Positions 34,735-38,986 of a stretch of 39,767 bases of DNA are shown here, in pieces. The notes beneath the pieces were generated by a model. The model worked only from the letters and a program-made list of their open reading frames with translations. It did no database searches and was not told where the DNA came from. The stretch's first letter is position 1. Each line of letters begins with the position of its first letter. Made by a program: the position numbers and the translations under genes. This DNA comes from Candidatus Omnitrophota bacterium (GTDB lineage Bacteria > Omnitrophota > Gorgyraeia > Zapsychrales > Zapsychraceae): contig JAGQKV010000011.1 in assembly GCA_020429915.1 (NCBI GenBank), positions 140,607 to 180,373 on the forward strand. The letters run 5' to 3'.

Positions 34735-35250
34735 TCAATCCGAATGAAACCCGATCGACCCCTTTTTGTGCGTCTCATCCGGAGATTCGAGGAGTTTTCT
34801 GATGGCCTCGAAAACGAGTTGAAACTTCTGGTCGTGGGCTTGGAATTTTCTTTCGATCGCTTCTATTTTCCGTTTCAAATCTGCATGGCTCACCATAATT
34901 TCCCGTAATCTTGTAAAAATACGCATAATTTGAATGTTGACCTGAATGGCACGATCGCTGTTCAACACGCTGGAAAGCATTGCTACTCCTTGTTCCGTAA
35001 AGACATAGGGAAAATGACCGCCAAAGTACTTTTTCGATGGTATCGCATTTTGCGATACCATGAGATCTACTTCCTTGGCCGTGAGTTGAAACATGAAATC
35101 CGCCGGAAACCTCTTTTTGTTGCGCTTGACCTGTTCCCGGAGCCGAATCGGTTTAACTCCATACAACTCAGCTAAATCCTTATCCAGCATAACTTTCTTA
35201 CCTCGCATTAAATATATACCTCTGACGATTTTCCCTTCTGCGACAAGCAT
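34735..35250 (-). CDS. ORF6N-domain protein
   Basis: A 171-residue protein. The ORF6N (KilA-N-related) DNA-binding domain is clear: IYLMRGKKVMLDKDLAELYGVKPIRLREQVKRN, RFPADFMFQLT, FPYVFTEQGVAMLSSVLNSDRAIQVNIQIMR. A helical tail, probably coiled coil, follows (LKRKIEAIERKFQAHDQKFQLVFEAIRKLL). GGAGG lies 5 nt before ATG 35250. The gene starts inside the polymerase gene, overlapping it by 43 bases. The domain is typical of phage and mobile-element proteins, often anti-repressor-like, but also common in free genomes. Confidence 0.9.
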   Translation of the reverse strand: MLVAEGKIVRGIYLMRGKKVMLDKDLAELYGVKPIRLREQVKRNKKRFPADFMFQLTAKEVDLMVSQNAIPSKKYFGGHFPYVFTEQGVAMLSSVLNSDRAIQVNIQIMRIFTRLREIMVSHADLKRKIEAIERKFQAHDQKFQLVFEAIRKLLESPDETHKKGSIGFHSD

Positions 35251-37442
35251 TCTTCCTCCTTTCTCTCCCACAAGTTTAATTCCTGAGCTTTCAATCTGTC
35301 GACATAAACCCTCAGCTCCTCCAACTCCATCTGCCTCTCCTTCTTGACCTCGCGCTCGATTCGCGCCTTGGTGTACCCGAACGGCTGCAGCAGGACGAAC
35401 AAGGCGCGGACCAGGAGTTTTTGGTAACGCGGCTTGTCGGGACGGCCGTTGTATTCGTCGGCCGGGACCGCGCCGCCGTCCTGGTGGACCAGTTCGATGA
35501 ACTGACCCGGCACCACGCGCACACCCTTCTCTTTCAGCCGCTCGACCACGCGCTTCTGCGGGAGGTTGGCTTTGTACTCGGTCTTGGTCACACGCAGCAG
35601 GACGATCAGCAGCGACGGCTTCATATTGGGCAGCTCTTCGACCACCAGCCGCAGGTACTGAAACAGCACCGGGATCTTGTCCAGGATCTCTTCTTTGGTG
35701 TCGCACGCCTTCATCTGCTCCAGCACATTCTGCTGAAAGGCCTTCACCAGGGCCGGCGAACCGCGCCGGCGGACCTCGATGCCACGCGCCTTGATCTCGC
35801 CGTTGCGGAAGACCCCGTAATACGTGCTGGGCAGCGCCCGGTGCGGGTCGACGACACTCGGCAGAAACACCACCCACTTGAAGATCCCCTCGAAACTGAG
35901 CGGAATGCCGGTGGTGATCTCCAGGTCCAGGCAGAACGACCTGACCTCCTCTTCGCCGATACCGTCCTGCTGCAGGTACAAACTGTCGACGATCGCGTGG
36001 ACCACCTGGTAACCTGCGTCTTCGGCGAGATGAATGCTTCTCAGGAGCGTCTCGCGCGCGTAGGCGCAGATGGCCATGTGCGAGGTCGGAATCCCGAGCT
36101 TGAATTCGCGAAAGCGCAGATAACCGTAGCAGCTGACCAGCACCCACTTCAATCCTTTCGCGCGCTGTTTGTTATCAGGCGTCGGGTGGGCCTTATAGTA
36201 CATGCGCCGGTCGATGAAGGGTTTAAGCGCGGTGGGGATCAGCCCCGGACGTTTGCGTGACGCGCGCACCGGGATGTCGGGGACCTCCTCAAACGGACCT
36301 TCGTCGGTGAGCAGGCATTCGGCGGAAATGTTGTGGTTGTAGATCAGCCACGGGAACATGCTGGTGAAATCGATCTCGGCCACGTCGCGGTGAAAGCCGA
36401 TCTTGGGATCGATGGTCAACCCCGCGCGGTCGGACTTGAGCATCTCCAGCATGCTCAGCGGTGGCTCCAGCGGCTTCTCTTTATAGGCGACGAGCATCCC
36501 GTTGCGGACCAGCAAACGGATCAGCGCTGTTTGGAAGACCGCGCCGAAACTGCGCGCCGCCGCCGTCTGCAACAAAGTCCCGGAGAGCCGGACCAGTTCC
36601 ATCACCCCTTCGACGTCACACTCGGTGCCGACAAAGCTGTTGCGATCGACCAGAAAGCGGCCGCGCAGCTTGACCGCGTAATCCTGATAACGCACCTGGC
36701 CGTAACTCCAGTACGACCGTCCGCCGCGGTAACGCAGCGCCCGCGGATGCCAGCGGTGAAACGCGGCGTACATGTGATGCGCGCGCAGCCGCCCGTCCAG
36801 GTACGGCAGCCGCGCGTAGGCATAGTCCATCTCGATGACATCCGGATCACGGCGGTGAAAGATCCGCACCAGCGCGCGCAGCACCTGCTCTTCACTCCCG
36901 CGCAGCTCCTCCCCGTCGACGAGGGCCATGCGCAGTGGAACATCCGGCGAAGCCTCTTTGCCCAATCCCTTGGCAGGCGAAGACGGACGGATTTCACCAG
37001 AGGGGATCACATGAAGTTGCAGCCTGGTCAGCTGCGGGAAGGAATCGTCCTTCAAAGGAAAGATCTCGGAGCCCCGCACCTCCACCCGTCCGCAGGGTGT
37101 GAGGTCCCGCTGATAGAGGAACATCTGTTCAGGCGGGATATCGGCATTGTAGAAGGTGATGCGGTGTCTGGTGGCACGCTCCAGTTCACGGACGAAGCGT
37201 TCGAAGAGGTCGAGCCGCGGGACCGGGACTGCGAGAACTTCCTTGAAGGTATAGAAATACGTCTTTCTTTTGACCGTGTGAAAGGTGATGCGCCTGCGGC
37301 GCAAAAAAGGCGCCGCCTCCGGATCGGTATAGATGAGCGCGTCGAAGTCAAACTCGCGGTAAAAGTCTTCACCGCCGGAGGTTTTCATCCATAACACGAT
37401 CCGGTTGTCGCGGCGATAGGCATCCATCAGCCAGGCCTGCAT
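35208..37442 (-). CDS. Divergent B-family DNA polymerase, exonuclease-degenerate
   Basis: A 744-residue protein. Polymerase motif A: EIDFTSMFPWLIYNHNIS with catalytic D358. Motif B: KGLKWVLVSCYGYLRF. Motif C: VHAIVDSLYL, where canonical YGDTDS is changed; the second Asp (D486), the direct metal ligand in studied enzymes, is kept while the first is Ile. The exonuclease region (about 135-280) is present but ExoI DxE and ExoII NxxxFD are not visible (LQLHVIPSGE and MDYAYARLPYL at those places); the ExoIII aspartate seems kept (GRFLVDRNSF). Proofreading is therefore unlikely. GAGGGGAG precedes ATG 37442. Last of a RecA-like / small protein / PolB operon, overlapping its neighbour by 16 bases. Most like archaeal-type PolB2 enzymes found in some bacteria; a lesion-tolerance role is inferred. 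Confidence 0.9.
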   Translation of the reverse strand: MQAWLMDAYRRDNRIVLWMKTSGGEDFYREFDFDALIYTDPEAAPFLRRRRITFHTVKRKTYFYTFKEVLAVPVPRLDLFERFVRELERATRHRITFYNADIPPEQMFLYQRDLTPCGRVEVRGSEIFPLKDDSFPQLTRLQLHVIPSGEIRPSSPAKGLGKEASPDVPLRMALVDGEELRGSEEQVLRALVRIFHRRDPDVIEMDYAYARLPYLDGRLRAHHMYAAFHRWHPRALRYRGGRSYWSYGQVRYQDYAVKLRGRFLVDRNSFVGTECDVEGVMELVRLSGTLLQTAAARSFGAVFQTALIRLLVRNGMLVAYKEKPLEPPLSMLEMLKSDRAGLTIDPKIGFHRDVAEIDFTSMFPWLIYNHNISAECLLTDEGPFEEVPDIPVRASRKRPGLIPTALKPFIDRRMYYKAHPTPDNKQRAKGLKWVLVSCYGYLRFREFKLGIPTSHMAICAYARETLLRSIHLAEDAGYQVVHAIVDSLYLQQDGIGEEEVRSFCLDLEITTGIPLSFEGIFKWVVFLPSVVDPHRALPSTYYGVFRNGEIKARGIEVRRRGSPALVKAFQQNVLEQMKACDTKEEILDKIPVLFQYLRLVVEELPNMKPSLLIVLLRVTKTEYKANLPQKRVVERLKEKGVRVVPGQFIELVHQDGGAVPADEYNGRPDKPRYQKLLVRALFVLLQPFGYTKARIEREVKKERQMELEELRVYVDRLKAQELNLWERKEEECLSQKGKSSEVYI

Positions 37443-37744
37443 GGACGGCTCCCCTCGACTGCGCTCGGGACGGTTCCACTAGACTTTTCGGGACGGTGAG
37501 CGAAGTCGAACCGCTCCTCCAGTTTTCTGATCCGTTTCTCCTGTTCGAGCAGAATCGATAACAGGACAAACGCCCACACATCCAGGCTCGAGGCATACGA
37601 CACCGCCCCCACGTGCTTGAGCGGTTCCTTGAGCATCCGTTCGTAGACGCACCGGTCCTCCCTGCACATGGCCTGGCCGAAAGACTTCAGTTCATTTAAG
37701 ACATAATCAACGCGCATGCGTTGGGAAGAAACCGTGTGACCCAC
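37427..37744 (-). CDS. Small helical protein of the PolB operon
   Basis: A 105-residue protein. The start is GTG 37744 with GGAGGTGA 5 nt upstream; the longer frame to 38011 merely reads through a repeat. Residues 1-75 are helical (YVLNELKSFGQAMCREDRCVYERMLKEPL, AFVLLSILLEQEKRIRKLEER) with no family I recognise; two cysteines (MCREDRC) could bind metal or bond. The last 27 or so residues (FDFAHRPEKSSGTVPSAVEG, then SRPC) are encoded by a REP-like palindrome (37455-37510), so they are probably not ancestral. It overlaps the polymerase start by 16 bases. Confidence 0.78.
   Translation of the reverse strand: MGHTVSSQRMRVDYVLNELKSFGQAMCREDRCVYERMLKEPLKHVGAVSYASSLDVWAFVLLSILLEQEKRIRKLEERFDFAHRPEKSSGTVPSAVEGSRPCRPG
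37455..37510. repeat. REP-like palindrome forming the end of the small PolB-operon protein
   Basis: Arms TCGACTGCGCTC and GAGCGAAGTCGA (one mismatch) flank two GGGACGG motifs. Its translated product FDFAHRPEKSSGTVPSAVEG is a peptide I recall from many unrelated metagenome proteins, which supports a dispersed element. Confidence 0.7.
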
Positions 37745-37761
37745 CTTGCTCACCTCCGGTG

Positions 37762-37937
37762 AGAATTTCGAATATCGAATCTTCGAAATCCGAAGGAATA
37801 TCGAAATTCGAATCTTCGAATGTTTAAAACGTGCGTTTTTAAATTCGAATTTCCGGCCGGTCAAAACGCGGTTTCGAATTTCGGTTATTCGGTGATTCGA
37901 TATTCTTTCGATATTCGATATTCGATATTCGAAATTG
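37762..37937. repeat. Palindromic repeat, TTCGAATA arm type (copy C)
   Basis: A 176-bp AT-rich block with arrays of TTCGAAT, TATCGAA and ATATTCG on both sides of the core GTTTAAAACGTGCGTTTTT and GGCCGG. It lies exactly between the RecA-like gene and the small gene, and codes for repetitive peptides (FRISNIEYR, FKHSKIRIS) in both overlapping frames. It is unlike its GC-rich neighbourhood. Confidence 0.8.
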
Positions 37938-38363
37938 GCTTTCAACCCTATCACAATACCTCTGCGCGAAAGCCAGGTGTTCGGAGTGTGCCAGCACCCC
38001 CACGCGTACATCGTACGTCTGACCCAACCCGCGCATCAGCTCCCAGCAGTGATGATGGATGTCGCGGTTTTCCTCCGGGTCCTGATAATGAAAAAGGTAG
38101 TCGCAGGTGGTCACGATCACTGTCCGCGCGCGGACCCGGGCCGCGTAACGCGGGGCGTTTTTGAGGATATCGCGGAACTTGTAGAGTAATTCCAGCTCGA
38201 TCACGTAGATCTGACCGAGCGTCTCGTGCGGGAATTCCGGGTACAACCGGTGCGGGTCGGCGGCATTGGCGCAGTCGACCACGAGCGCCGGCGCGCTCCG
38301 GGCCGCGTAACGCAAGAGTTCATAATTGATTGTTCGGGTAGGACTTACAAGACCGATCAGCAT
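37839..38363 (-). CDS. RecA/ImuA-like protein without Walker A; C-terminus altered by a repeat
   Basis: A 174-residue protein. LIGLVSPTRTINYELLRYAARSAPALVVDCANAADPHRLYP and TVIVTTCDYLFHYQDPEENRDIHHHCWELMRGLGQTYDVRVGVLAHS look like the central strands of a RecA/RadA-type core, with VDCANxxDPxRL and a Walker B-like IVTTCD. There is no P-loop (no GxxxxGK[ST]), so ATP binding is doubtful. Residues from about 142 (SQFRISNIEYR onward) are encoded by repeat copy C and are probably foreign. ATG 38363 is chosen after AAAGG; the longer frame to 38453 crosses the promoter. It heads the polymerase operon; a recruiting role like ImuA is inferred. The fold call is moderate. Confidence 0.75.
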   Translation of the reverse strand: MLIGLVSPTRTINYELLRYAARSAPALVVDCANAADPHRLYPEFPHETLGQIYVIELELLYKFRDILKNAPRYAARVRARTVIVTTCDYLFHYQDPEENRDIHHHCWELMRGLGQTYDVRVGVLAHSEHLAFAQRYCDRVESQFRISNIEYRKNIESPNNRNSKPRFDRPEIRI

Positions 38364-38390
38364 GGGAACCAACCTTTGTTGCGGGGTGTA

Positions 38391-38447
38391 CCGGCGTGAC
38401 TTCTCCGGCGTGATAGAAACTATACCATACAGATGTGTGGGTGTAAA
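38391..38447 (-). promoter_or_regulatory. PolB operon promoter with tandem operator candidate
   Basis: Minus-strand TTTACA (38442-38447), 17 bp, TGG-TATAGT (-10 at 38419-38424). Directly downstream is a 9-bp direct repeat TCACGCCGG, 5 bp, TCACGCCGG (38391-38413), 14-bp period, placed over the start site. A repressor-type site is likely. Confidence 0.6.
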
Positions 38448-38482: not shown

Positions 38483-38986
38483 TTGGTGATAAGTGATATA
38501 GCTGGGGAGTGCGTTGTGGTGATATAGCCAGGAAGCGCGTTGTGGTGATACGGGATACGTAGGTTGGCCCGATGCTTTATTACGCCGGGGAGACCGGCCC
38601 GTTGACTCAGCGCAACAGGCGGCAGACTGTTCGTATCCCTTATCCCGTATCACGTATCCCGACTCGCACAGAAGCGCCTTTTGGTGATACGTGATATTGC
38701 CAGGGCGCGCGTTGTGGTGATACGGGATACGTGGGTTGGCCCGATGCTTTATTACGCCGGGGAGACTGGCCCGTTACTTAATCCAATAGGCAGCAAACTG
38801 TTCGTATCCCTTATCCCGTATCCCGACTCGCACAGAAGCGCCTTTTGGTGATACGTGATATTGCTGTGGTGTGCTTTGTGGGGATATAGCCAGAGAGCGC
38901 GTTGCGGTGATACGTGGCTGGCCCGTTGACTTAATACACCAGACGGCAGACTGTTCGTATCACGTATCCCTTATCCCGACTCGCTA
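38483..38986. repeat. Three tandem palindromic repeat units, GGGATACGTGATACG arm type (B1-B3)
   Basis: Units begin at 38483 (198 bp), 38681 (164 bp) and 38845 (142 bp). Each starts TTGGTGATA and ends TCCCGACTCGC plus, in two units, ACAGAAGCGCC. Inside are GGGATACG/CGTATCCC arms and a shared middle (TTGGCCCGATGCTTTATTACG and GACTGTTCGTATC). TATCACGTATC/GATACGTGATA flanks the joint between units. The array ends where the next gene's stop codon begins, and no gene lies within 38454-38986. Confidence 0.85.

Follow-up and report, generated by a model that had tools for sequence, protein, structure and literature searches.

A probable PolB2 mutasome operon of archaeal origin with a candidate LexA operator in an Omnitrophota bacterium

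Three genes in a 39,767-nucleotide (nt) stretch of a Candidatus Omnitrophota genome (GCA_020429915.1, contig JAGQKV010000011.1; hereafter the window, located on contig C23 of the 3.3-Mb genome) very probably make up an iRadA-PPB2-PolB2 operon for a bacterial PolB2 mutasome, archaeal in origin and controlled by the SOS repressor LexA. The system is already known and little studied, and the window fits the published PolB2 mutasome. A sequence-only reading of this DNA, which had proposed a possible mutasome built on a B-family polymerase, was right in outline but not new, because the three-gene system had already been published. We found the three open reading frames (ORFs), all on the minus strand, where that reading had placed them, together with the following features:

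37839..38363, minus strand: iRadA, a Rad51/RadA-fold protein without a P-loop, 174 amino acids (aa); start ATG 38363 set by alignment to relatives
37427..37744, minus strand: PPB2 (arCOG07300-like), 105 aa, start GTG 37744, N-terminus MGHTVSSQR
35208..37442, minus strand: PolB2, 744 aa, start ATG 37442; motif C HAIVDS and a D338-R339 motif
37763..37936, no strand assigned: TTCGAATATCGAA-type repeat array at the iRadA/PPB2 junction
38419..38447, minus strand: promoter with -35 TTTACA, 17-bp spacer and -10 TATAGT, read from the sequence and a comparison of 14 promoters
38425..38440, minus strand: LexA-type palindrome CCACACATCTGTATGG (CCAYAC-N4-GTRTGG), filling the promoter spacer

Makarova et al. 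2014 (PMC4104785) report a three-gene operon of a dead RadA, arCOG07300 and PolB2, present in several bacteria too and accompanied by lexA in some of them. The names PPB2 and iRadA come from Timinskas et al. 2025 (PMC11791011), who present a heteropentamer model, find one gene order in bacteria and lexA enriched in bacterial polB2 neighbourhoods, and propose a single archaea-to-bacteria transfer; DPANN, Woesearchaeota and Omnitrophota go unmentioned in the main text of that paper. A 2026 survey (PMC12926913) restates the mutasome proposal. The architectural parallels drawn in the literature are a polymerase, a small-subunit arm near the active site and a RecA-family partner that docks by way of a filament-like motif (PMC11791011); the polymerase family, the fold of the small subunit and an iRadA that is dedicated and lacks the P-loop set the present system apart. 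Most of what is known about the PolB2 mutasome comes from genetics in archaea and from models.

The window shares with the published mutasome the gene set and order, a dead RadA-family subunit, a small helical PPB2 with a conserved N-terminal arm, a substitution in the DxD motif of PolB2 and, in one relative, lexA next door. It differs in its arm motif (MGHT, against MGRT in PMC11791011), in the LexA-type operator located here and in the repeat array that here separates iRadA from PPB2. The Sulfolobus Dpo2 (PolB2) operon comprises the same three families and is damage-inducible (PMC11791011), but its control is archaeal, with the hexanucleotide A(N)TTTC in ultraviolet-inducible promoters (PMC5817253) rather than the palindrome of the window.

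The largest protein matches Pfam DNA_pol_B (E 6e-10), and its best NCBIfam model is NF004416 (type B polymerase; E 1e-94, 318 bits, below the curated cut-off of 516 bits), in agreement with its earlier assignment to the B family. The first Asp of DxD is replaced (IVD within motif C of the window; I or V in 9/9 aligned rows). D338 and R339, which correspond to the D(K/R) motif expected to contact the PPB2 arm, are invariant in 9/9 rows. A weak alignment of the exonuclease domain (24 bits) shows no DxE opposite FDIET of Deep Vent. By eye, and with no profile applied, AQELNLWE near the C-terminus resembles what we take to be a beta-clamp motif.

iRadA was expected to be a RecA-like protein lacking a P-loop, and indeed GxxxxGK[ST] was not found in its sequence. 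It has no significant Pfam match, and its predicted structure adopts a Rad51/RadA-like fold. The conserved core spans about the first 144 aa, the remainder being read from the repeat array. PPB2 is the 105-residue helical protein of the sequence-only reading, running from GTG 37744; it has a three-helix model of low confidence and matches no Pfam family at E ≤ 1. In its alignment (A4), G2, H3, T4 and V5 together with S7, Q8 and R9 are invariant in all nine rows, one of which (Woesearchaeota locus L008) was cut to start at an Ile that has no start codon there; arm position 3 is thus His, not Arg.

The sequence-only reading also likened the set to an ImuA-ImuB-DnaE2-type module in which a B-family polymerase replaces DnaE2, an explanation we regard as hardly credible. 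The resemblance holds for composition in outline only, namely a dead RecA-family subunit and an error-prone polymerase. The set has no ImuB or Y-family homologue, its middle protein being the short one described above, modelled as three helices, and its polymerase is B-family rather than C-family. The 50 best VIA rows for iRadA are all Rad51/RadA/Dmc1 or Rad51-paralogue entries, placing this subunit nearest Rad51/RadA; plain Foldseek also lists RecA. Those rows leave the ImuA label unsupported, while absence from such a list does not exclude ImuA itself. What stands of the earlier mutasome idea is the dead RecA-family subunit, the small helical bridge and the PolB, as in the published reading; its novelty and the ImuA label do not.

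The gene set recurs in related and distant genomes. A scan of genome contigs returned 10 loci (three Omnitrophota, one Brocadia, one other bacterium and five DPANN archaea), eight of them complete and two (L011 and L016) cut by a contig end. The order iRadA-PPB2-PolB2 on one strand is found in the window, in 4/4 other complete bacterial loci and in 4/4 complete DPANN loci. Two of the bacterial loci come from genomes G121 (a Candidatus Omnitrophota metagenome-assembled genome, locus L012, belonging to the same taxonomic order as the host) and G196. Among 371 DPANN genomes, 23 matches reached E up to 1e-40, and 11 of the best 15 loci (L115-L129, of which L115 and L116 repeat L008 and L010) keep this order; several weaker DPANN matches are confined to the second half of the query and could belong to other PolBs.

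Within 392 genomes of Brocadia's phylum the sole match was Brocadia itself. In IMG/VR the 58 matching loci were all weak (22-31% across portions of the query, apart from a 37-residue piece at 49%), and 108 plasmid records all fell below 60% identity, the best 20 of the 108 being haloarchaeal. Phage records yielded only four matches, all in Leptospira phages at 27-28% identity. In one of these (L139, KF114879.1), the B-family polymerase is 27% identical to PolB2 and has two hypothetical genes just upstream.

In a tree of 23 PolB2-like rows, built without a PolB3 outgroup and without other bacterial PolB2s such as that of Leptospirillum, the five bacterial rows form one clade (support 99/96) with L008 as its sister (set of six, 100/99). 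These fall within a group of 12 DPANN and five bacterial rows (100/100). Nine rows deviate in amino-acid composition, and the long branches of phage and haloarchaea come together in this tree. The contig of L008 holds archaeal-type genes by eye, e.g. a Kae1-like protein, which make bacterial contamination seem unlikely. The topology points to a DPANN-like donor of these bacterial copies.

The promoter proposed at 38447-38419 was read there as TTTACA, 17 bp and TATAGT, and the palindrome in its spacer is the candidate operator. The palindrome followed by GGTAT is common to the host's own lexA promoter and to the operon promoters of the window, G121 and G196, and from these four we built a starting pattern. 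Searched across 13 genome entries (two pairs being the same genome), it gave 39 matches against 15 for the backwards pattern, and it hit the promoter of the operon in G287 and in Brocadia, neither of which was used in deriving it. The consensus CCAYAC-N4-GTRTGG is perfect at the window, G287 and Brocadia operons, with one mismatch at G121 and two at G196; the chance of a perfect match in a 250-bp stretch is ∼6e-5, assuming uniform bases. Four DPANN operon promoters have four to five mismatches at best.

The box also fills a 17-18 bp spacer in 14/14 listed promoters, which were picked for holding it; spacers of 16-19 bp were tried, and their -35-like and -10-like hexamers each agree at four to six of six positions. 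In the host's own lexA promoter it occupies the same spacer position with one mismatch, and the lexA promoters of G121 and G287 carry it with one and two mismatches. Genes behind the box include lexA (LexA and S24 domains), a C5 methyltransferase and a radical-SAM protein, the last presumably SplB-like. Two umuD-like genes, each followed by an umuC-like ORF, are preceded by it as well (the S24 domain identifies one umuD; the remaining labels were given by eye). We infer that the palindrome is an operator for LexA, which would release it on damage; our literature search listed no paper on a LexA box of Omnitrophota. This candidate operator would link the bacterial PolB2 operon to the SOS response.

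The damage or repressor control suggested earlier thus gains a conserved basis in the spacer palindrome of the bacterial operon promoters compared, and not in the direct repeats on which it had been placed. The repeats near the start, two copies of TCACGCCGG, are not in the promoter stretches of relatives that we compared. Larger repeats at 38483-38900, upstream of the promoter and rich in GTGATACGGGATA, gave 10 genome matches including their own place, with partial copies elsewhere, and were likewise set aside as an operator. A scan for the operator with one mismatch allowed was swamped by chance matches. Similar promoter palindromes precede two umuD-umuC-like pairs in G287 (L110 and L112) and genes that are KilA-N/BRO-like by eye at L106 and L111.

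Taken with the published model, these features suggest how the operon would act. DNA damage would take LexA off the spacer palindrome, so that the three genes are made together. In the predicted heteropentamer PolB2-iRadA-PPB2(3), one N-terminal arm (MGHT...R9) of the PPB2 trimer would reach in between PolB2 and iRadA, and iRadA would dock on PolB2 as one Rad51 subunit does on the next. The complex would then extend primers past lesions without proofreading, leaving mutations; translesion activity is reported in the literature for Sulfolobus PolB2, and that of the window enzyme is presumed.

Several observations weigh against this account. The operon is rare in the phylum: 286 genomes gave six matches at E up to 0.001, strong only in the host genome, G121 and G196. 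Four of the 15 best DPANN loci deviate, with PolB2 first at L126 and L129, PPB2 and PolB2 at L128 and PolB2 alone at L127. The PPB2 model is of low confidence (pLDDT 68.8). The starting pattern also matches elsewhere in the genomes, the 16-mer with one mismatch allowed is no commoner than its reversed form in 7/10 genomes (8 against 12 in the host), and in G288, a DPANN genome, a perfect copy occurs at a place other than its operon. The box is four mismatches off in the G196 lexA promoter and absent from that of Brocadia, which would also suit a repressor other than LexA that ties the operon to another signal, as would its presence at KilA-N/BRO-like and methyltransferase genes. We consider such a repressor unlikely, given the box at the host's own lexA, at the lexA genes of G121 and G287 and at two umuD-like promoters, and given the published enrichment of lexA near bacterial polB2 (PMC11791011).

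The repeat array bears on whether the operon is intact here. The first two genes overlap by at least 1 nt in 4/4 other bacterial loci, with no gap, whereas the window has a gap of 94 nt, the dispersed array running across the iRadA end; the tight packing claimed earlier applies to PPB2/PolB2 (16-nt overlap) and not to iRadA/PPB2, while the shared direction of the three genes stands. The 174-nt array, whose TTCGAATATCGAA-type repeat matches the host genome 61 times, at about 26 places after merging by eye, lengthens iRadA by about 30 codons, a tail modelled at low confidence. This insertion might lower expression of PPB2 and PolB2; a rival reading is a decaying operon, in which the array uncouples them from iRadA and the complex is made in the wrong amounts. 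We nevertheless find decay very unlikely: the three frames are open with key motifs kept, PPB2 is preceded by its own ribosome-binding-like GGAGGTGA, the promoter palindrome matches the consensus perfectly, and wide iRadA-PPB2 gaps also occur in DPANN loci L015 and L118.

The DPANN operons carry a different upstream element. ACTGGACA lies on the gene strand in 12 of the 15 best DPANN loci: before iRadA of iRadA-PPB2-PolB2 in eight, before an iRadA-PPB2 pair that follows PolB2 in two (L126 and L129), before PPB2-PolB2 at L128 and before PolB2 alone at L127. It was not found at L122 and L123, and L119 has just 33 nt upstream. In a DPANN set of 194 genomes centred on G286, CACTGGACA-N12-26-TTTAA occurred in 114, with 417 matches against 13 for the reversed pattern, the 13 counted by eye and overlapping tandem copies of CACTGGACA counted more than once.

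We surveyed the sites in a first set of 25 genomes, mostly chosen for having PolB2 (loci L141-L230). Of 88 merged CACTGGACA sites, 68 have an ORF of at least 60 aa whose start lies 25-160 nt downstream, and the other 20 lack one; the commonest distance is 50-56 nt (34/68). As raw counts among the 25 of 58 families listed, the 68 proteins include 13 LAGLIDADG_3, four PDDEXK_1, three Cas4, two MCM, two UvrA, one Rad51 and one RadC. Three score against the Hef model, which overlaps with other helicase models, one helicase is Lhr-like by eye, and iRadA itself accounts for three. A large share of the others could not be clearly assigned.

On balance, we lean towards a mutasome operon present on both sides of the archaea-bacteria transfer and rewired on each to the local damage switch: in Omnitrophota and Brocadia this would be a LexA palindrome within the promoter spacer, and in woesearchaeal DPANN CACTGGACA just upstream of the TATA box. 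CACTGGACA would then mark an undescribed candidate SOS-like repair regulon comprising uvrA, radA, hef, an lhr-like helicase, mcm, cas4-like nucleases, radC and the polB2 operon. Among the papers listed, a shallow literature search found no earlier description of a DPANN or woesearchaeal damage motif or of the CACTGGACA element; of 1,505 papers containing the letters of the element, none of the 15 listed concerns archaea by its title. The element, if real, would give DPANN archaea a damage regulon.

Downstream of the operon in the window, an ORF6N-domain gene (34735-35250, minus strand) shares 43 nt with the 3' end of PolB2; the ORF that follows PolB2 in G121 is a different one.
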